Assembly: GCF_035083965.1 (NCBI RefSeq)
Contig: NC_089736.1
Location: 1,193,001 to 1,257,000 of the forward strand
Direction of reading: 5' to 3'
DNA from: Branchiostoma lanceolatum
Lineage: Eukaryota > Chordata > Leptocardii > Amphioxiformes > Branchiostomatidae
DNA length: 64,000 bases
This document shows, piece after piece, positions 42,478 to 61,620 of this stretch. The number at the start of each line of letters is the position of its first letter. Position 1 is the stretch's first letter. Position numbers and translations under genes: made by a program. The notes under the pieces were generated by a model. That model did not search any database. It had not been told where the DNA came from and saw only the letters and a program-made list of their open reading frames with translations.

Positions 42478-42741
42478 AGGTGTATTTGCAGCCAGTGCCA
42501 CAGGCAGGTACCCAATGTGTAGGGTAATGAGGCTGTTTAACGTGTTCGAGGCACCTCCTCGAGCACGGGACCCCCGTTTTACGTCCCTCCCGGAAGACGA
42601 TTTCGTGGAAAGCTTCGTGAGGCTACAGCAATCCGGACGTCCTTGGTTGGTCCCCCATCCAAGCACTGTCCGGACCGCGCGTTGCTTAACTTCCGAGATC
42701 GAGGGATCGGGTGTATCCAACGCGCCACGCGGCCGTAGCAT
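42478..42741 (-). mobile_element. SINE with 5S rRNA-like head and Deu-like body
   Basis: On the minus strand from 42740: GATCTCGGAAGTTAAGCAAC, then CAGTGCTTGGATGGGGGACC and GCTGTAGCC, the internal-promoter and 3' parts of 5S rRNA. A body with GGGACGTAAAACGGGGGTCC follows, the same block as in the two elements at 58970 and 61624 (GACGTTAAATGGAGGTCC). Flanked by ATAAT on both sides, a likely target duplication. It sits in the Z9-Z10 spacer at a point where other units read GGGACAAATAAAAAG. It belongs to the SINE3/Deu-type group. Confidence 0.8.
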
Positions 42742-48599: not shown

Positions 48600-50560
48600 C
48601 TCCACTATGAATAGCCTATACTTAATGTCATCTACTGTTTTTGATTAATTCTTAATTATTCTTATATTCATTCATTGAATATAATGTTTATTAGAAGAAT
48701 TTGGTATCCGTGTCATAGAAGTAATATGACACACAGATCAGGAATGATAATGATGTTCCAAGAAATGTGCAAACTCATTTTGAAATTTAGTTTCGAAAAA
48801 TGCCATTAATATTTGGAGATTCATGCTGAAGTTGATCTTGAGTATTGAAAAAAGTCGATACAAAGGATCTAAAGAGAATGATAAGAAATATTATTTCCAC
48901 ATTCAAAAATCCCTCCCAGTTGAAAAGGTGCTTGTATATTGCAGTAAGTAAGTCATATTGCATTACTATGAATAGTCTTACTTAAACCCATCCATTTTTT
49001 TTACTTATGTTAACTACTAGAGCTTGGTAATTCTGTCTTTAAAGTAATATGACACACAAAACATGAAGTGTCATGATATTGCAAGAAATTTGCAAATCTA
49101 GATTGATAAATATATTAGTAGGAGATTAATACTGAGCTGATATTGAAGTAGGTAAAATTGGACGGGTCTGTTAAAAAACGGCTTATGACTGGAGGGGGTT
49201 GGTCGTCCAACTAGGCTTGACTGTACTTTTGTCATTTTTTATCACTGCTTGGTTTACCATAGAGATAGTTGACAGTAGGGGTGGGTACCGGTACATAAAA
49301 TTCAGGTCCGGTCCAGGTCCAGAGGGTCAGGTCCAGGTCCGGACCTGTACCTGTACCTGATTATAGTAGTGTCGCAGTACATCATATTTTGGAGAGCGAG
49401 ACACGCGTAAAAGTCTCCAAACGTCAAGTCTGGAACGATATAATTTCTTAGGTTTGCACTTTGTCTCAAAATTATAACTATACTCTCTTCGCCGTCTGTT
49501 TACTCATCCTTTAAGTGTTTCTAGATATGATTCACAGCTAACGTTATCGAAAACGACTCGTTAATCTGCTGTTTTGTATTTTCTTACACCAGTTATGTGG
49601 CCGCCTGCTGGTAGCCTGGTACTATGAATTTTCTAATCGGTCCATATGCCGGTCCACGGCTTTTTTACGGACCGGTTTTTTTGGACCGGTCCATTAAGAA
49701 ATACCGGTTTTGTACCGGTACTACCCACCCCTAGTGGACAGTATAAAGCGAGTTGTTTAGTTACACAGTGACAAATAAAGACCTTGCAATAAAGACCTTC
49801 TGGATTATCTTGAATTCCTGCTACTTTGCATTCGATGAATGAATTTGTACCAAATACTTACAACTCTTCGTATAAAGTAGATTATTACTGGGGCATTTGA
49901 TTGATACCCTAATTACTTATTAATGAAACTAAGCTTCTTTCACGTGTTCAGACTAGTTGTCAAATACCATGATAACAGATATACACGCTTCCCGTACAGA
50001 CCTGTTGGCATTAAGTTACATGTCCCAGGAGTCTTGCTGGGACCTATTTTTGATAATCATTGGTTAATATTTTTGGAAATATTTATTCGATAGTGTAATA
50101 TAAAGAGCTATATGTCAAAATTTTTTATCTGTATTACATAGATCATAATGTAGATGATTGTGTTTAGCATAAACCTTGAATGTACCTTGTGTCATTGGGA
50201 CAACCGCAAAACCATTTTTTTGTCACATACTGGATCTCCGGTTATAATGCAATACTTTTACATAAGTCATGATGATGGTGATGTACATAAGTACTAGCTA
50301 CTGTTAAATATCATACAGTTCTGTTGCCTTTTGTTGACTTAAAAGCCGTCCACAAATAATTTGAAGTAATATTTACGAGTTTGTATCATCCATAACCTCA
50401 TTTCCCAACATCCGATGTATAATCTTATTCATTGGCTGTTGCAAATCAGTGTATTTGACCTTCTATAGGTGACAGATTACAGTTTCAGGTCACCTTGCTA
50501 CTCATGAACAGGGCTCTGTTTCACAGCGAGGCATCAAGGGCTTCTTACTTTGTTGCTGAG
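48600..50560. other. AT-rich intergenic region
   Basis: No gene, domain or RNA recognised. Contains the hAT-like MITE at 49276-49733. A direct-repeat flavour (AATATGACACACA at 48724 and 49047; GCAAGAAATTTGCAAA-like pieces) suggests an old local duplication. Confidence 0.5.
49276..49733. mobile_element. hAT-like MITE, 458 bp
   Basis: Inverted ends TAGGGGTGGGTACCGGTAC and GTACCGGTACTACCCACCCC then TA. Flanked by GTTGACAG (49268-49275) and GTGGACAG (49734-49741), an 8-bp duplication with one mismatch, as expected for hAT elements. The body is rich in CCGGTCC/GGACCGG. No transposase frame. Confidence 0.85.
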
Positions 50561-50800: not shown

Positions 50801-50979
50801 TGTCTGCCGTTGTTTCTTTGCTTCTGTTTCTAAGGATTGAAATTAGACACTGGTGTCTTCGTCATCTCCGAACGCCTGTCTTTAGCCCTGTTCTTTTCCA
50901 CATCAGCGAAAGTTGCCGTGAGCATGTCAGCACCAGGGCCGGTTCCACCAGCCGTTACCTCGGCTTTCTCTCCGGCGGT

Positions 50980-51720
50980 CTACTGGTTGCTGGTAGTGGT
51001 GGTTCGTCCACTGTCCTGACGAGGCTTATCCAGCGGAATGCGCGCTCCGTCCTCCTCCACATCAGCCACAGTAGTCTTGGGCATTTCTGTGCCAGCGTCG
51101 GCTGCACCTACCGCTGCCTCAGTCCCACCTGCGGTGGTCTGCTGGTTGCCGGAAGTTCGTCCACTGTCCTGATGAGGCTTATCCAGTTGAGGAGGTGCCC
51201 TGGTCTCCCCCACATTGACGCAAGGCATTTCTGTACCAGGGTCGGCTACACCTGCCGTCGCCTCAGTCCCACCTGCTGTGGTCTGCCGGTTGCTGACGGT
51301 GGCGGTTCGTCCACTGTCCTGACGATGCTTATCCAGCGGAATGCGTGCGCCGTCCTCCTCCACATTAGCCACTGTAGTCATGGGCATTTCTGTGCCAGCG
51401 TCGGCTGCATCTGCCGTTGCCTCAGTCCCACCTTCAGTAGTCTGCTGGCTACCGGCAGTGGCGGTTTGTCCACTGTCCTGGCGAGACTCACCCAGTCGAG
51501 GAGGTGCCCTGGTCTCCCCCACATTGACGCAAGGCATTTCTGTACCAGAGTCGGCTACACCTGCCGTCGCCTCGGTCCCCCCTGTGGTGGTCTGCTGGCT
51601 ACAGGCAGTGGCGGTTTGTCCACTGTCATGATGAGGCTCACCCAGTTGAGGAGGGGCTCTTGTCTCCTCAGCGTTCACAACGGCCAAAGTTGTCATTGGA
51701 ATCTCTTCAGCACAGCAGGT
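50980..51720. repeat. Coding minisatellite in the receptor tail, about 150-bp units
   Basis: Five tandem units in minus-strand coding sense, of two alternating types: one with EIPMTT/EMPMTT ... [12 protein letters not shown], the other with [14 protein letters not shown]. All carry a QDSGQT/QDSGRT core and begin GGTEAT-like. Units are about 46-53 codons; length differences keep the frame. Confidence 0.9.
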
Positions 51721-53596
51721 TTGTCCACCTGACGTTACCTCAGTTGTCCCACGGGTGGCCCGCCGGTTGTTGGCAGCAGTGGTTGTGGTTGCCGCAGTGT
51801 TCTGCTGAGGTTCCACCAGACCAAGCCGCGCCCTGATAGCAGACTTCCATTTCTCCACCACCTCGGACGTCATTGTCAGTAGCAAGGTCAGCAGAAGGCC
51901 TTGGGAAGCATTCAGGACTATAAAGATGTACTCGACAGCTCTGCTGTTGGTGTAAGGATAGATGAAGCCGAGAATCCAGGTGAACCCGGTCAGGAAGGAG
52001 ATACGCAAGTAGACCCAGGCCTTGCTGCTCTGTGAGCGCGAATTAGCCACGTCCGCTATCTTGAATGACTTCCGTATGGCCAGTAAGACAAAATTGACCA
52101 AGAAAGCATTGACCAGAAGGGCACAGAGGACAGGAACTCCAAACGCCACTAGACTGGCTGTCGGATTGCCGATCCAACAGTCCTGCCCGTAACCCACCCT
52201 GACAGAACCGGCGAATTCAACAATCACGGTCACCACTACTATGGCCACCGGCACCAGCCAGGTATACAACAGGTACTTGTAGAAACCCACTCTTTCTAAT
52301 CCATCACGAAAGGTAAGAAAGAGATCCATGGCTAGTGCGTTCATGGACGTGAAGGCCGTCAACAGGAGGTAGTGCAGCAGTACTGCGTACACGGTACAGA
52401 TCTGGCCGAGAGGGACAAATACGCGTACCACAAACATGAATTCAGCAAGTGCCATGCATATCATCATCTGAGCTTTCAGCTTTTCCGGAATTTTTTCCCA
52501 CTGACCAGACCTGATAGTCTGGACCACGAAACCGGCCACGGCTACGACAGACGTTGACACAAGACCGAGGGTTAACCAACCCTGGTCTGGGTCCCGACTG
52601 TCGGTGGTTTGCGTGTTGTTCAAGAAGTGCTGCAGTATGCACTCCCCGCAGATCGAAGCTGTTGTGTTCAGAATGGCCACCTGCTCAGCTGGGCAGGACA
52701 CGTTAGAACTAAGCAGGTGGACACTGCCATTGGGAAGGACATAGAACTCTTCAGCTGTGAACGTCAAAGCGGGCTCGCTACAATTCTGTAATGGGATAGT
52801 TTTGTTTGATGAGTCAGGACTTCTGTGAGCGGACGAATAATCCCGGCATGCGTTTGCAAACGGATCAAAGATAGTATCAGAGGGACACTGGTCGGGGCTG
52901 TTTTCACCACTCCCGAAGGCATTGAAGTTGAACAGATTAGTTAGTGAGAATCTTATGGGCGTATCATCCCCCTCGTCTTCTCTATCCCAAACATAAGCAC
53001 ACCGTAAATTTGAGGTTGCCGTAAGGGAGATTCCTTCACAAAGAGCACAGTGTACATTTTTGTAAATCTTATGTCCAATGCCCACTGGATAACTGTAGGA
53101 CCTACAGGCAGTGAAATCACAACTCCCATCTGAAAGATCTGTCGGGAGACATCGCCTCGCATCGTCAGAGATAAATGCTAGCTTGCTCGTTCCAGAGCAA
53201 TACAATGCCCTATCAATGATATTGCTGTACTCTTTTGAGCCGCTAGGAGTGTGTGAAGACATGTTAAGCCGCCCAGTACACTCAACGTCGCCTTCCCAAA
53301 CAGCTACGTTTGTTAAAGACGCATTGTTACAAATTGCACAAAATATGTTTCTGTACGGGACTGCCTGTGATGCAGCTTGAACAGGCATCCGGTAGACCAC
53401 GTCACTGGGGTTGAAGGGATCCACTTGTTTTACACACTGGGCCCTTGTGACGTCATCCGTCCATTCGTCAGGGCAGTCAGCAACCATCCAGTAGGATGAG
53501 GCTTTGGGATAGGGGTAGTATGCTTGTGAAAATCCAGGTACACACTTCCACTTCAGTTGGTGATAGGCAGGCGGTGTTTGAGCTAGGCTGCTTTCC
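50980..53596 (-). CDS. Receptor last exon: ectodomain, 7TM, tail
   Basis: The acceptor CATCCGCCACAG lies before GGAAAGC; the entry base completes the Glu of CCEDFE from the SMB exon. The ectodomain has two YRN.FCAICN-like blocks ([24 protein letters not shown]) and a [17 protein letters not shown] block, a pattern I associate with invertebrate Methuselah-like receptors. TM1 starts at [13 protein letters not shown] (about 52585); TM6 is [15 protein letters not shown] and TM7 is [19 protein letters not shown] (ending about 51870), good family-B signatures. The frame is also open a short way into the intron (to 53631) with no ATG, which supports use as an internal exon. Confidence 0.88.
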
Positions 53597-56500
53597 CTGT
53601 GGCGGATGTAATAAAGTCGTTCTAAGCACAATGATTAAAACCAAGACAAACTATCCCATAATGCTGCAATGTAATTCTTCTTGTCGACATTGCCACGTAT
53701 GATTTTGTCATCTGATTCCAAAAGGAGAAGAACCAATAGGAGCGCAGGATTCTCTGTTACCATAGAAACCAGTCATAACAGGCTCTCTCTAACTCCATGG
53801 TAACAGACAACTCTGACATTGCTCATTGCTAACACAAAATGTATGTATAAAATTCTCCTGACCTGATCAACGCTTCTGTCAAAATTAGAAAAAGGGCCCT
53901 ACGTGGCCCCGCGGGTACCCTGCAGCTACCTGGCTATATTTGGGCACGGCCGGGCCCTTGGATGTTTTTATCTACTCGACTCGGTACCAAAAAGACGTCG
54001 TCAGCTAATCGCGAGAGCGCCGAGAGTACAAGCAACCCCCCCCCACACACACACACCCTAATCTCCAAGTAGATCTATGGGTTGCATCAAGACCGTATCA
54101 AACTGGCAGAGGAAGTACTATACAAGCTCCTTCTTCCAGTTGGATACGGTCTTTGCAATCCATTGGGCCTGGTTGGAGGCTAACACACCCCTCCCCGTAC
54201 CCGGCAGTCCACCGGGACAAATTTGAGGTCGGGGCTACATCCCATTCAACAGACACCGGTGCAGATTTGAACGAAGCATTCGTCAGGCTAGCAGAGATCT
54301 ACTTACTCGAAGTCTTCGCAGCAGTCGCCGAAAAAGCCACAGTCATCATCGCAATAACACAAATCCCCATCATCCCCTTGCTTGGCACACGTATAGGCCC
54401 CTTCGCAGTCTTTCCCGCTGAAGTCCCGTGAGAAAGGATCTAATAGAGAAGACGGATAAGACAGTAATGATAGTCAATCAATTTTAATTGACACAACAAA
54501 AGTGCAGCGATATTTTTAAACGTTTACAACTATACATTCAAACAAACACGTGGATACATAAATAATAACCTACGTACAAGTACATGCATGTGAATAAATC
54601 AACATGTTGAGTTTGACGTACCAATCAAACTACTAGTTCTAAGATCTAAACATTCTTTGATACAGATAGGTACACATGATTTCCAGCAACTTTTATGAAA
54701 GTCCCTGCACAGCTAGGAATGTTATAATATGATATAAACGTCTATGTGGAATATGTTGTTCTCTGATCCTTTGTCCAAAGGGGCACTTTTGTTTGGGATT
54801 TTCATTAGGATCGTGATTTTTGTCTATTCAAGACGTCTTGTAACTCATTTTTAATTGATATTAAGGAATAACGAGAATAAATCAAAACTATGGATTTGCT
54901 CGAGTTTCCCACCGGCACATTCCATTACGTCGCAGTAGTCCCACGTCTGTGCCGGGTCCGCGGTGTAGCACCAGGGCCGCTCCTTGTTGTCAGGGTTACG
55001 GCAGAAGTTTTCCTCCAGGCCTGCATCAGGATGAGCCTGCGGTGTGTGGGGATGGCTGTGGGGGGACTGGGAGTCCCATCTCTGACACTCCCGGTCTCCT
55101 GCCCTGTAGAGATGGGCACAGAATAACACATTGAGGATTATTGAGATACCCTTTAGCCCCTCTAGGGGGCTCATCTTCCATGACTCATAAACACTACATG
55201 TACATCACAAAATACATACATACACACATAATTACATATTTACATACAGGTAAAAGCAGGTAGAATTGAAGAAAAGGATTGGTTGAGGTCAAAGGTCAGA
55301 AGCTAATTATGACTGAAACCATCAGTCGACATATCTGGCAATAAAAACATACCTGCAAATTACTACAATTGCTACCTATTTACAAATCAAACTATCAGTC
55401 AATATTCACGACACGAATAAGGTTCAATCTTGTTGTGGTCAGGTGAAAACAGTAGGCCATGCAGTTTTTATTAGCTTCACGTATCGTCCTAGAGGTCGCT
55501 TTGTCCATCTGTAAACATTTTGTACACCATATGCACTATCACGTGTACTTTGGATGTGCATGTTTTGGTGTCGATGATTTGGAGGTTCCTAAACTTCCGA
55601 AAATAATTTCATCAGGTTGGTAGAATATAGGATATAGGAGATTCTTTTTACACAACCAGGTAATCTCATCTGCTAACGTTTATTCCCGTTGGATTAAGGA
55701 AGCCGTCTGGGTAAGGAAGACAACACCAGTGATGAACCGAGACGAGGGGGGATACAAGCTTAGCCACGTTTGGGACAGTGTTCTCACCGCAAAAGCGCCA
55801 CCTACATCGGCTACTTATAGCGGTGAGAAGCAGTACTCCAGTCAGAAGCTCTGAAGAAGGTGTCTGATAGACATCGAAACGTTAGCAGGTGAGATTACCT
55901 GGTTGTGTAAAAAGAATCTCCTATATCCTGGCTCCTAAACTGTTCAGCTAACCTCACCTGTTTATCTGCCCTGCGTAGCTCCTTCCCTTGTCCATTGCGT
56001 AGAAGCAACGCGTAGGTGGGGCTGAAAATATACAACAGGGGAATGAACATAACCGTGTACGAATTGGTAATCTCCAAGCAGATCTAAACGGGGCGCGAAA
56101 ATCGTATATGCTAGCCAGAGAAGGTCCAGTCAGCCAGATAACCTCCAGCCAGCCCCGTACTGGCTAGCATATACGATTCTCGCGCCCCGTGCAGATCTGC
56201 TTGGAGATTACAAATTGGCACGTCGGGTACTATACATGCCATCATTATACCAAGCTCAAACATAAATAGAGTTTGGAAAGGTGCCCATCACATTCTTTTG
56301 AGGTCTCAATAATTCAATGTAAAGTTTTGTCTACAGAAGCTGCTACATTTTATCCGTCCCGTGGAAGTAATAAGCGCAAATAAGAGTAATGATGGGTATA
56401 ACAAGAGAGCTCTATGGAGTCACATTAAGGTCTCAAAGGTGTAAATCGTGAATTCGTAATGTCTATACCGCTCCAACCAGTATAACTGACAAGTTCAGAA

Positions 56501-59500
56501 ATCAATTTTTTGTCTTTGGCAGCTGCAACGTTAAAGACCATAAACAAAAATATACACCGCTATCCCCGTACCTCTTCAAATTAGTGCCTGGTAGTGACCA
56601 ATTCTGGCCTTGCACCGAGAAATATCGTTGAAAATAAGTGTTAAAAGAAAAAAAATACAAAAAAGTTACCATCACAGGCGAAGACCTCATCACAGTACAT
56701 CCACCTGATGAGGGGGTTGTTTGTGTAGCACCACGGCCTGTCCTTCCCGTCCGGGTTCCTGCAGTAGTTCCGTACCAGCTCTGCCGATGGGTAGGCCTGG
56801 GGAGTGTGGTTATGGGTGTGGGGGTACTGAGATGTCCAGAACTGACAGGATTTGTCCTGGTTTGCTAGGCCCCTGTAGCTTGTCCCTCTGTCCCGTAGAT
56901 AGTAGCAGTCTGTGGATACATATGCATTATAACGCTACATCGAAATGTTGTACACGAAAGGACCATTTCGGAGGTGCTTGTAAAATTCCAGCCATTTGAT
57001 GCAGGTACTGGAAGTATGGGAAGTTTTTTTGTTTAATTCCAACCAACCAAACAAACAAATATATAGATAAATAAACTATAATCATGCATCTGAGACACAT
57101 CATTTAATTACAAGCCTATAGCTTTATGAAACGACGGGAGGGGAAAGATTATTGCAAGCAACGGTCTCCTTTGGGCCGGAATCCACCCTTTCTATAGCTC
57201 CGATTCGCTCCAACGTTTGCCTCCACGCAGAGTATCTGCTTGCCTGGATTTCAGCCTTGTTATCTTTGGCCCGCTCCCCAAGACCCGCTAGCCAGTCTAC
57301 AAGGCGGATCTTGGGGATTGGACCAAAGCTAACACGGCTGGACTTCAGGCTAAGTATTTGCAGGGAACGATAAAAGCAGCGAAAGGAGCTAGATTAGGAA
57401 TGGATGTCTGGTTGGCTAGGTCTCTTCTTTGTGGCATGACATCGTTAAAGCCCACTGTACCCTCCCTAATGAATAATTTAGGACTATGTACACTGTGATG
57501 GCGTTGTCAATAATTACTGTGCGTGGAGAACTCACCACAGTTCTTTTCATCACTGTTGTCCCCGCAGTCATCTTTGCCGTTACACCGGGCAGACGGGTGG
57601 AACAGGGCTCCGTTGTCACAGGCAGCAGGAGCTACGGGAGAGAAGGGACATCGATGAGCCAATCAGAAAACTGTTCCCTTCAACTGAGCCAATCAGAAAA
57701 CTGTTCCTTCCAACTGAGCCAATCAGAAAACTGTTCCCTCCAACTGAGCTAATTAGAAAACTGTTCCTTCCAACTGAGCCAATGAGAAAACTGTTCCTTC
57801 CAACTGACCCAATCAGAAAATTGAGCTAATTACAAAACTGTTCCTTCCAACTGATCCAATCAGAAAACTGTTCCTTCCAACTGATCCAATCAGAAAACTG
57901 CTTCGTCCAACTGAACCAATCAGAAAACTGCTTCTTCCAACGGAGCCAATCAGAAAACTGAGCTAATTAGAAGACTTTTCCTTCCAACTGAGCCAATCAG
58001 AAAACTGTTCCTTCCAACTGAGCCAATCAGAAAACTGTTTCTTCTAACTGAGCTAATTAGAAAAGTGTTCCTTCCAACTTAGCTAATCAGAAAACTGTTC
58101 CTTCTCCCAGTAAAAACAAAATTTCGTTTTACTAGTTATGCGATATAAAAAAAACACTGTGGCTAGTGCAGTGTACTTACGACAAGTCTCGTCGCTGCCA
58201 TCGCTACAATCTTCTGTACCATCACAGGCAGAATATTGTAGATCACAGCTAGGATCATCATAATCATCAACAGAACATTCGTCAGGACGTTTCTGCAAAT
58301 TTGTACAGTCTCCGTTACTGCAGGCCAACTTGCCCTGCCGCTCGCCTGGATCAAGCATAAAAATAAACACTGTCGTAAAATCTACGGCGTTAATTACTTA
58401 CGACTAGACTCGACAAGAGCACATTTTTTTTCAACAACAGATGAAACCACACTTTTAGCTATTGCCTTATTGCAAACAGCTGCATTAGCACTGTAATATA
58501 GGAACGGCAAATTAATCTATTCTTAAGTAACTCGATAGGATGTCTACAGACTAACATTGAAAGTTAAAAAGTCACTCTGAGAACCAACACCTAAGATTCA
58601 CTTTGCGTCAAACATACCAACCAACCAACACATCAACGAACTAACCAACCAACCAACCAACCAACGAACCAACACATCAACCAACCAACATACCAACCAA
58701 CCAACTAACACACAAACCAACCAACCAACCTACCTACCAACTGACTAACCAATTAACCAACACATCAAACAACCAAAAATAGCACCGAAAACACAACCTT
58801 GTCTGGTCGTACTTACAGCAGTTCTGTTCGTCTGTGCCGTCTCTGCAGTCGTCTCTGCCGTCGCACACTTGTGCCTTGTTGATTGTGACTCCGTTTGCAC
58901 AAATCTCCTCATCTATAGCTATATTCATGACAGAAAGTAGTGTAGTGTCAAAATATGGTCACAGATCCATGTGCGTAGAATGCAATGCGTAGAACCAGAG
59001 GTACTGAGTTCGAATCCGGGGTTCCCTGATTTGTCACGTTCACGTTCGTTATGCCCTTAGGAAAGGCACTTTACACTACTTTCCTCACTTCACTCAGGTG
59101 TAAATGAGTACCTAGCTTCGGTTAGGGACGTCCCTCGGATAGGACGTTAGATTAAGGGCCCGTGTTTGAGGGGAGCCACACCTTGAGCACGTTGAAGAAC
59201 CCAGCGCACTTATCGAAAAGAGTAGGGGTTCTTCCCGGTGTGAGTGGTTCAAAACCTACTGTCCTATGGCCGCACATGGGGCAATTATCGTATTGAGGCC
59301 ACCTGCGCGCCGAATGGCAGTCGCTACAGACCCTTGCGATCTATCCCCGCCAAATCTACGCTCCTCACAATTCAGCCCTGGCTGCGAAGAGAGAGTATTC
59401 GGCCCACCCAATAATAAACAATAATATAAACAATGGTAGACATAACACGAAGCCCTACTCATTTAACATCATTTATTACACATACTCGACTGGCCTGTGG

Positions 59501-60578
59501 CTTAGTGGTTTTTTTCCTCTTATTTTGTTTGATTTTTGTCTAGCAAACCCTGCTAAACTCTTTCCTGGTTCATGCCTTACCGCAGTTGTTTTCATCGCTG
59601 CCATCGGTACAGTCCACTATCCCGTCACAGATCACCTCATGCACGTCACAGTTCCCGTCTGTGCAGACCGTCCTCTCAAATCCGGAGCAAGCTGGACGAA
59701 TGTAAAGAGATACAGGATGAGGTACAAGTGGAAGCTATGCGACTGTTGCAGATTATGTTTTGAAATTGCGGCCAAATGTTTCCAGTTCTTTGTGAATGGG
59801 CGCCTGATATCGCTGCTTAAAAATTAATGAGAATTGTAGGAGGAACGATCGATGGTAGGAGGAGCCGTGGGAGGCCACGTAGTAGGTGGGGGGGACGACC
59901 TCCGTGACTGGACGGGTCTCCCACTGGCAGAGTGCACCCACAGAGCCAGAGACAGGAGGGAGTGGAGGAAGCTGGTACTGGACGCTACCATAGTCCCCGA
60001 CCCTCAGGCTGCCGCAAAGTCAGGTATGAGGATGGGACTAGGTAAAGGCTTAGGTAAAAGGTAGGAGGGCTAACAAGAAGCCCTGAAATGGTTGCAAAAC
60101 TGGTGCCCCAAGATATGTTAGCTTTGCTCTGTCGCTATACAAAGCAAATATAGTTAGCACTTACCCTGGAAAAACTTGATCTCGCTGATTTCTTTCCGAT
60201 TCCCACGCGGGAACTGTAGGCGCCAAGACTGCCCGGAGGCAAGGAGTCCAGTCAGGTCGATTTGGTTCGGACGTATGTCGTCATTCCTTACATTTGGTTG
60301 GCTACTGTGTGTCACACTGGTCCATCCTCGTCCAGTCCAACGCCAGACTGTGACGTCCATGTCTCCACTGTCGTCACCCGGGTACCACAGCCGGATCCGG
60401 GAGAGCGTCATCGACGTCTGCAGATCGAACGTCAGCTGCCAGGTGGTCTCATCGTCTTCGCGTCTCCACGTCGTCTTGAAGTTGTTGTCCAAGACGTATC
60501 CGGCAACGCGTCGGACGCCGTCGTCACCCTCCCATTCGTCCGGTGTCAACCATGTTGGGTCGGTCTCCACCCAGCCAC
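50980..60578 (-). CDS. Modular 7TM receptor: F5/8C-LDLa x4-kringle x2-SMB-7TM
   Basis: Assembled from ten exons: 60578-60165, 59691-59581, 58918-58817, 58345-58181, 57631-57536, 56909-56670, 56021-55958, 55103-54913, 54439-54307, 53596-50980. Every junction has GT-AG and matching phase, giving 1,376 codons without a break. The first exon starts in phase 1, so upstream exon(s) with the signal peptide are missing; none was recognised up to 64 kb. Order: F5/8C-like, four LDLa, two kringles, SMB, a Cys-rich ectodomain with several N-glycosylation sequons, seven TM helices of the secretin/adhesion/Methuselah type, and a cytoplasmic tail of five repeats of about 50 residues. I see no GPS cleavage motif before TM1. 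It probably sits in the plasma membrane and binds extracellular ligands through the modules; ligand and G-protein are unknown. Two adjacent genes instead of one is the main alternative, but the SMB's eighth Cys is supplied by the 7TM exon, which argues for one gene. Confidence 0.8.
53640..54306. other. Receptor intron before the 7TM exon
   Basis: No exon recognised. A partial foldback lies at 54057-54170 (CTCCAAGTAGATCTATGGGT; AGACCGTATC pairs with GATACGGTCT). Confidence 0.5.
54307..54439 (-). CDS. Receptor exon: somatomedin-B (SMB) domain
   Basis: The acceptor CTATTAG precedes ATCCTTTC and the donor GTAAGT follows TTCGA. Encodes CEGAYTC ... [19 protein letters not shown], the SMB knot pattern with CxC and CC. 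Seven Cys are here; the eighth is supplied by WKC in the next exon. Enters in phase 1 and leaves in phase 2. Confidence 0.88.
54913..55103 (-). CDS. Receptor exon: second half of kringle 2
   Basis: The acceptor ATCTCTACAG, the donor GTGGGAAA. Encodes [13 protein letters not shown] ... [16 protein letters not shown] ... WDYCDVMEC, all late kringle landmarks. The intron position inside the kringle agrees with classical split kringle exons. Confidence 0.9.
55104..55957. other. Receptor intron within kringle 2
   Basis: No exon or known element recognised. CACAACCAGGTAATCTCA (55654) and GAGATTACCTGGTTGTG (55888) are inverted, bounding about 250 bp. Confidence 0.5.
55958..56021 (-). CDS. Receptor mini-exon: first part of kringle 2
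   Basis: 64 nt; the acceptor TTTTCAG precedes CCCCACC and the donor GTGAGG follows AACAG. Encodes [20 protein letters not shown], the first kringle Cys and the Y-x-G segment. It joins the 54913-55103 exon in phase 2 to give one complete six-Cys kringle. Confidence 0.85.
56068..56210. mobile_element. TAATCTCCAAGCAGATC palindromic MITE, 143 bp
   Basis: TAATCTCCAAGCAGATC and GATCTGCTTGGAGATTA end a palindrome with inner arms GGGGCGCGA and ATCGTATATGCTAGCCAG. Flanked by CGAATTGG and CAAATTGG (8 bp, one mismatch). It lies only about 50 bp upstream, in gene sense, of the kringle mini-exon acceptor. Confidence 0.88.
56670..56909 (-). CDS. Receptor exon: kringle 1
   Basis: The acceptor TGTATCCACAG, the donor GTAACTT. 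Encodes a whole kringle: [52 protein letters not shown], with all six Cys. Phase 1 on both sides. Unlike kringle 2 it is not split. Confidence 0.93.
57536..57631 (-). CDS. Receptor exon: LDLa-like module D
   Basis: Encodes [20 protein letters not shown], then [12 protein letters not shown]. The Ca-binding D-x-S-D-E is present but only four Cys, against the usual six. Phase 1-1. Confidence 0.85.
57650..58112. repeat. 30-bp minisatellite with CCAAT boxes
   Basis: About 15 copies of a 30-bp unit (TGAGCCAATCAGAAAACTGT then TCCTTCCAAC), with a variant reading GAGCTAATTAG. Most units hold a CCAATCAG, the NF-Y core. Lies in a receptor intron. Confidence 0.95.
58181..58345 (-). CDS. Receptor exon: LDLa module C, extended
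   Basis: Encodes [13 protein letters not shown], an Asp-rich insert ([14 protein letters not shown]), then [16 protein letters not shown]. Seven Cys; longer than a standard LDLa of about 40 residues. Phase 1-1. Confidence 0.87.
58610..58765. repeat. (CCAA)n microsatellite
   Basis: ACCAACCAACC-type runs with interruptions in a receptor intron. Confidence 0.9.
58817..58918 (-). CDS. Receptor exon: LDLa-like module B
   Basis: Encodes [20 protein letters not shown], then [13 protein letters not shown]. Four Cys only; the Ca-binding acidic cluster is kept. Phase 1-1; the donor is GTAAGTAC. Confidence 0.85.
58970..59430 (+). mobile_element. SINE with tRNA-like B box and Deu-like body
   Basis: A polymerase III B-box-like GAGTTCGAATCC at 59007-59018 lies near the 5' end. 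The body has GACGTCCCTCGGATAGGACG and CTTATCGAAAAGAGTAGGGG, the latter known to me from SINE3/Deu-type SINEs. It ends in an AATAATAAACAATAAT tail. It shares over 250 bp with 61624-61945. Confidence 0.78.
59581..59691 (-). CDS. Receptor exon: LDLa module A
   Basis: Encodes [20 protein letters not shown], then [17 protein letters not shown]. All six Cys and the CDGxxDCxDGSDE calcium site. Phase 1-1. Confidence 0.92.
59835..60063 (+). mobile_element. LINE 3' ORF remnant
   Basis: Plus-strand frame reads [20 protein letters not shown] then RREWRKLV, which resembles the last residues of non-LTR reverse transcriptases. Short, 5' truncated, in the receptor intron, opposite strand to the gene. Family not resolved. 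Confidence 0.6.
60165..60578 (-). CDS. Receptor exon: F5/8C-like (discoidin) domain
   Basis: The acceptor TGTCACTGGCAG, the donor GTAAGTGC after TTCCAGG. Encodes GWVETDPTW ... [20 protein letters not shown] ... [20 protein letters not shown] ... SWRLQF ... ISEIKFF, about 137 residues, a galactose-binding-fold pattern. The usual N- and C-terminal Cys pair is not clear. Phase 1-1. It would bind lipids or glycans outside the cell. Confidence 0.75.
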
Positions 60579-60789: not shown

Positions 60790-61620
60790 AGCCGGTGTCA
60801 CACTACGCGTTGGTGGCAGCCATTGTCTGAAGGATTTGGATTCCATCAGTCCTCTGCCAGTAGCAGTCTTTCATTAATCTTTCACGGAGGTATGTATAAA
60901 GCCGGCTTCACATAGCAGAAAAAAGAGCTCGCACCATTACCAGTCTGACTACGACAGGTGTCCTGTCGGTCACTTGCACTGTGCGATATTTAGGGCTCAG
61001 CCTGTATTTGCATTTCGCGGAGCCCTGTCCAATGTAACAGGGTAATTTTGCAGGGCAAAAATACGCTTGTTTTTTCTTGCGATTAAAAAATTCGGTCGAA
61101 TGTGGTTGGGTCGGTCTCCACCCAGCCACATGCCAGTAAAAGTAACAGTAACAAGTATCTAATACCAGCTCAGGAAAGGACAAGAAGTAGTCATGGCTTT
61201 AAGTACCAGAGTTACCAACTGAGGATTGATGTGTTCAAAAATTCGTATTTCTAGAAAACCATAGGTGAATGGACCTCGTTGTAATCAAATACTGTAGGAA
61301 CACGCTCACTGAATAGTTAAAGAACGGTTTCAGTCAAATGTGCGAGAGTTACGTGTGGCAGGTCGTTCAGTGGAATATAACCAGCTGCTGTCTCGCCGCG
61401 TGCATGCGGAGCTGTACAACTGTGTTACGCTGAAGGGCGGCTATACCGACTATACAGATGCAGATACAGAACAGCCTCCCATTAATATTTCACAGAGGAA
61501 TGTGTAATGCTCTCGTCAGACAGCAAGAAAAGAGCTGCCAATAACAGGCTTTCATTAAAGAGCTGAGCTTTGTAAGCTAATGCAATATATGTTTCTCCAT
61601 TTCATACACCTTCATCATCA
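60790..61620. other. Region upstream of the receptor's first visible exon
   Basis: No signal-peptide exon recognised. Holds a copy of the 230-bp repeat, a second fragment of the F5/8C exon edge (GTTGGGTCGGTCTCCACCCA at 61106), and several copies of CATTAAT(A/C)TTTCA(C/T)NGAGG. Confidence 0.5.
60868..61100. repeat. About 230-bp dispersed repeat, copy 1
   Basis: GGTATGTATAAAGCCGGCTT to CTTGCGATTAAAAAATTCGG. Copy 2 is at 62545-62778 in the same orientation with scattered changes. Origin unknown; may be a MITE. Confidence 0.8.

Follow-up and report, generated by a model that had tools for sequence, protein, structure and literature searches.

Ten exons on the minus strand of the 64,000-nucleotide stretch of Branchiostoma lanceolatum DNA analysed here (the window) can be joined in a single frame, and the joined protein runs in the order open N-terminus, F5/8C-like module, four LDLa modules, two kringles, somatomedin B (SMB) module, cysteine-rich juxtamembrane region, class B seven-helix (7TM) domain and repetitive tail. 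We consider it quite probable that these exons make up one gene for a class B seven-helix receptor of the adhesion/Methuselah-like side, in which a mosaic ectodomain works in the way proposed below.

Exon chain and reading frame

The first-pass annotation of this DNA had described ten minus-strand exons with 1,376 unbroken codons, and both points were confirmed. All nine introns have GT-AG borders, the phases match at all nine junctions, and the sole stop is terminal, with the split first codon and the stop included in the codon count. Stops occur in every frame of each of the nine introns, so that an open frame is obtained only by splicing. Agreement of nine phases by chance would be expected about 1 time in 20,000, (1/3)^9, a figure that is overstated because the sites were chosen with the frame in view. 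We also searched the joined protein with phmmer against the 2,140 six-frame open reading frames of the window (at least 20 residues each); the ten matches at E ≤ 1 were the ten exons themselves, and extra exons of the same kind were not found in the window at this threshold.

Table 1 Exons and encoded parts of the predicted receptor gene, with positions counted in the window.
Feature	Position	Strand	Remarks
Exon 1, F5/8C (discoidin-type) galactose-binding-like module	60165-60578	-	phase 1-1; no Cys; 16.6 bits; beta fold
Exon 2, LDLa 1	59581-59691	-	phase 1-1; six Cys; Pfam
Exon 3, LDLa 2	58817-58912	-	phase 1-1; four Cys of its own; Pfam
Exon 4, LDLa 3	58181-58345	-	phase 1-1; eight Cys including split junction codon; Pfam
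Exon 5, LDLa 4	57536-57631	-	phase 1-1; four Cys; Pfam
Exon 6, kringle 1, complete in a single exon	56670-56909	-	phase 1-1; Pfam, PDB
Exon 7, kringle 2, first part	55958-56021	-	phase 1-2; Pfam, PDB
Exon 8, kringle 2, second part	54913-55103	-	phase 2-1; Pfam, PDB
Exon 9, somatomedin B-like module	54307-54439	-	phase 1-2; seven of eight Cys; SUSD2 alignment, Pfam
Exon 10, whole	50980-53596	-	juxtamembrane region, 7TM, tail and stop
Exon 10, first part, juxtamembrane ectodomain of 340 residues	52576-53595	-	repeated YxNxxCAxC motif
Exon 10, middle, class B (7tm_2) seven-helix domain	51817-52587	-	rough limits, those of the piece searched
Exon 10, end, cytoplasmic tail	50980-51816	-	tandem units of about 150 nt; TAG at 50982-50980
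In-frame open stretch past the TAG, tail-repeat-like	50833-50979	-	49 codons, then a second TAG

Exons 1 to 6 each have a length that is a multiple of three in addition to their phase 1-1, and the same holds for exons 7 and 8 taken as a pair. Exon 9 (133 nt) would shift the frame if skipped alone; with its phase of 1-2, the frame is kept only jointly with exon 10. This pattern fits the earlier suggestion that modules were added as phase-1 exons, and we infer an old core of the SMB module and the 7TM exon, to which the discoidin-like module, the LDLa modules and the kringles were joined in this manner. Two of the introns hold repeats: a 30-nt minisatellite (57655-58104) occupies most of intron 4, and an inverted repeat in intron 7 (55629-55929), with 53-nt arms that are 98% complementary, resembles a small transposon.

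On the N-terminal side no signal peptide was in view. A search for a leader-bearing first exon on the minus strand between 60579 and 64000 returned no candidates, and the plus-strand control returned four; the thresholds and donor weights of this search were our own choice, and a leader divided between two exons would escape it. Because no leader exon appeared in this 3.4-kb stretch at the end of the window, the N-terminus is open, and the gene may have additional modules past 64000. Exon 1 also begins with a 25-nt sequence of which an exact copy lies at 61105-61129 (minus strand), 551 nt upstream, and interspersed repeats both surround this copy and adjoin the exon 1 acceptor.

Ectodomain modules

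A Pfam search with the joined protein recovered Kringle (two stretches, E 1.1e-44), LDLa (four stretches, E 6.3e-15) and 7tm_2 (E 2.7e-16), and SMB stayed below its cut-off (20.7 bits against 23.1) until it was scanned as an isolated piece, where it reached 28.1 bits. NCBIfam gave nothing relevant. The order read earlier from the sequence, F5/8C, four LDLa, two kringles, SMB and 7TM, thus stood for the LDLa, kringle and 7TM parts; the F5/8C module is below its Pfam cut-off, and SMB as well as LDLa 2 and 4 are incomplete in cysteines. By profile, the F5/8C and SMB modules are both degenerate. Specifically, exon 1 scored 16.6 bits against the Pfam F5/8C profile, under the curated cut-off of 28.2, and showed a galactose-binding-like beta jelly roll for which DOC and CBM32 were the best fold matches, so that its assignment as F5/8C-like is based on the fold and not on the Pfam score.

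At least six cysteines are present in two of the four LDLa modules, and LDLa 2 and 4 have four each; if the usual LDLa pairing applies, the absent ones are presumably the first and the third. Of the eight SMB cysteines, seven are present. The eighth had been expected from the 7TM exon, but the alignment with SUSD2 puts at that position a Ser, which the beginning of exon 10 encodes, and the next Cys follows 15 residues further on. We therefore dropped this cysteine as proof that exons 9 and 10 are linked; the splice phase, together with the published SMB-7TM relatives, is the better argument.

The two kringles found their best PDB matches in the kringles of plasminogen and hepatocyte growth factor, with whole-sequence E values, each covering several stretches, of 2.3e-104 and 1.8e-76. 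Unlike these two proteins, the gene described here has no protease domain, and in the PDB alignments both of its kringles carry Lys at the second Asp position of the lysine site, where lysine-binding kringles have Asp. Because Lys replaces Asp in both kringles, plasminogen-style lysine binding appears unlikely.

Seven-helix domain and tail

Hydropathy analysis gave ten overlapping peaks, all of which fall in residues 843-1081 and which we read as seven segments. When the 7TM piece was compared with PDB sequences, 27 matched at E ≤ 1. Among them were 22 adhesion GPCRs, which included the best 21 matches and were headed by ADGRL2 (E 2.4e-11), and the remaining five were calcitonin/CGRP receptors (E 0.0013 to 0.024). 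In these alignments the Cys residues of QICTVYA and DCWIG, together with a TWILGF stretch, were paired with their adhesion-receptor counterparts; we take the two cysteines to form the TM3-ECL2 disulfide and TWILGF to belong to TM6. With its 7tm_2 profile and its mostly adhesion GPCR matches in PDB, the domain is of class B2 type. In viral and prokaryote contig collections, one and four pattern matches to exon 10 were found and none was confirmed; these collections are non-animal and uninformative on its distribution.

The tail is composed of tandem units of about 150 nt. Its terminal TAG (50982-50980, minus strand) lies inside one of these units, and all four of the other copies examined have CAG at this place. 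The in-frame stretch past the TAG scored 54 against the tail, a score attained by 4 of 1000 shuffles, and its resemblance to the tail repeat is suggestive. At the DNA level the repeat also continues beyond the stop, with 83% identity between 50922-51156 and 51225-51459. For this TAG, a recent truncation is possible, as are an allelic variant and an error in sequencing.

Juxtamembrane region and self-cleavage

For the 340 residues before TM1, Pfam gave no significant match (the one chance match was zf-RING_13, E 1), PDB sequences gave none, and the single-sequence fold had a mean pLDDT of 33, too low for use. The region contains a repeated YxNxxCAxC motif, seen in two stretches of 11 residues, and presumably this is a repeat motif that also occurs in other invertebrate SMB-7TM receptors. 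Internal duplication was scored between three parts of the region: parts 1 and 2 scored 55, which was matched by 2 of 5,000 shuffles, parts 2 and 3 scored 53 (0 of 1,000 shuffles), and parts 1 and 3 scored 27, a value reached by roughly half of 1,000 shuffles, where the shuffle odds are flattering because the parts were delimited after the motif had been seen.

GPS and GAIN profiles were absent among the matches at E ≤ 10 for both the whole protein and the 340-residue piece, a range in which the HMMER filters drop most matches above 0.1. HRM and Methuselah_N profiles were absent among the Pfam matches at E ≤ 10, the HRM test being made with an incomplete N-terminus. By eye, we found no His-Leu-Thr/Ser site, the cleavage-site motif of GPS, ahead of TM1. 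Since there was no GPS or GAIN match, the receptor would probably work with neither GPS self-cleavage nor a tethered agonist, and self-cleavage is unlikely as far as the sequence can tell.

Relation to known receptors

In the available text of Nordström et al. (2008), Kringle and SMB appear within a ten-gene expansion of amphioxus Adhesion GPCRs, LDLa and discoidin are named among the Adhesion-family domains unique to amphioxus, and amphioxus is stated to have no methuselah receptors (PMC2246102). The gene described here is alike in placing Kringle and SMB ahead of a class B 7TM and in carrying LDLa and a discoidin-like module; the comparison is by description, as that text assigns no set or order of domains to individual genes, nor both domains to all ten. 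The parallel with urokinase and vitronectin, in which kringle and SMB are found in interacting partners, is already drawn there (PMC2246102).

De Mendoza et al. (2016), in the portion available, assign B. floridae XP_002608881, which bears SMB, to the Mth/Mthl homologues, find Mth/Mthl among chordates only in lancelets, confine the Methuselah_N ectodomain to arthropod members, and report an SMB ectodomain for lancelet, Nematostella and acorn worm members (PMC4768249). Lancelet members such as XP_002608881 resemble the gene here in having SMB on 7tm_2 without Methuselah_N, but as described in that portion they come with no mention of kringle, LDLa or F5/8C (PMC4768249). The Mth-like label is therefore disputed between the available texts of these two studies (PMC2246102, PMC4768249). 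Zamanian et al. (2011) likewise report SMB ahead of an Adhesion-like 7TM in NvX of Nematostella and PARF1 of planarians; unlike the gene here, these have one SMB each apart from one PARF1, which has two, and kringle, LDLa and F5/8C go unmentioned in the available text (PMC3261222). Kringle is also listed among the additional domains of Adhesion receptors in the accessible part of a 2025 survey (PMC12716839). The first-pass annotation had known of no described receptor with this order. Receptors of this kind are already in print, judging from the available text (PMC2246102), and it is the exact module order that may be unprinted: our literature searches, with most subscription journals outside their reach, turned up no further paper with it.

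Alternative readings

A single gene is the likely prediction from the frame, the leaderless exon 10 and the presence of SMB on related 7TMs. Two genes, namely a secreted F5/8C-LDLa-kringle-SMB protein and a separate downstream 7TM receptor made from exon 10, would agree with the SMB match ending ahead of its eighth Cys, where the 7TM exon has Ser, and with the existence of Mth-like receptors without kringle or LDLa (PMC4768249, available text). However, the phases of exons 9 and 10 agree across a GT-AG intron, no leader can be seen by eye in exon 10, whose first Met falls within SYWMVADC, and according to the available texts 7TMs of this sort carry SMB in amphioxus, Nematostella, Saccoglossus and planarians (PMC2246102, PMC4768249, PMC3261222). 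Intron 9 also contains no AATAAA or ATTAAA, the first one lying beyond the stop at 50087, which is a weak argument as four of the eight other introns lack both hexamers. We thus hold a division into two genes to be highly improbable. Nor do we favour a receptor gene that is losing its function, although the TAG at 50980 stands where four other tail-repeat copies have CAG and the frame is open for 49 codons more, the SMB module lacks its eighth Cys, and LDLa 2 and 4 are each short of two; the frame is intact up to this final TAG, the nine introns are all GT-AG, and the TAG costs only 49 residues of repetitive tail, which leaves a damaged or dying copy very unlikely.

It is also doubtful, if somewhat less so, that the receptor is a canonical Adhesion GPCR in which the 340 residues conceal a GAIN domain that has diverged and that would provide self-cleavage at a GPS and a tethered agonist. 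Adhesion GPCRs are the nearest solved relatives of its 7TM, and the available text of Nordström et al. files the Kringle/SMB expansion under Adhesion and reports many amphioxus Adhesion receptors with GPS (PMC2246102); against this stand the lack of a GPS or GAIN profile at E ≤ 10, of a PDB match for the 340-residue piece and, by eye, of a His-Leu-Thr/Ser site before TM1.

Proposed working of the receptor

In the single-gene receptor that we prefer, the modules would bind a large extracellular partner. Candidates are a glycan or glycoprotein of the matrix, a binding partner of kringles, and a protein that carries lipid or is tied to a protease, comparable to vitronectin and urokinase. Binding would be relayed via the cysteine-rich juxtamembrane region to the helices and then to a G protein, and signalling would probably involve neither cleavage at a GPS nor a tethered agonist. 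Each of exons 1 to 6, and exons 7 and 8 as a pair, can be removed without a frameshift, and exon 9 is locked to exon 10. On this ground the gene could serve as a cassette receptor, in which alternative splicing puts ectodomains of differing ligand range on one 7TM, and the lancelet line could have acquired the modules in this order from genes of the haemostasis type; this reading is speculative and we rate it as rather unlikely.

Other features of the window

Between 1578 and 46114 lie ten long open frames, one on the minus and nine on the plus strand, that look C2H2 zinc-finger-like by eye, and seven of the ten start with MMESTE. Eight consecutive frames, with starts 2.6-3.3 kb apart (23550 to 44162), form a tandem cluster of putative single-exon genes. 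Amid this cluster, at 42620-42740 on the minus strand, is a 5S rRNA match (60.5 bits, cut-off 38), the sole Rfam match in the window at the gathering threshold, which is a candidate gene, pseudogene or 5S-derived element. A tRNA scan of the window found none.

Implications

The analysis provides an exon map, except for the 5' end, for a kind of receptor known from lancelet. It also gives an exon-shuffling picture, in which phase 1-1 modules precede an SMB-7TM pair whose junction is in phase 2. The gene has no recognisable self-cleavage domain, yet in their available texts the 2008 work classes such receptors as Adhesion GPCRs and the 2016 work groups the SMB-bearing lancelet receptors with Methuselah-like ones (PMC2246102, PMC4768249). 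Since no self-cleavage domain was seen and the two filings conflict, the class assignment of this lancelet receptor is worth testing.
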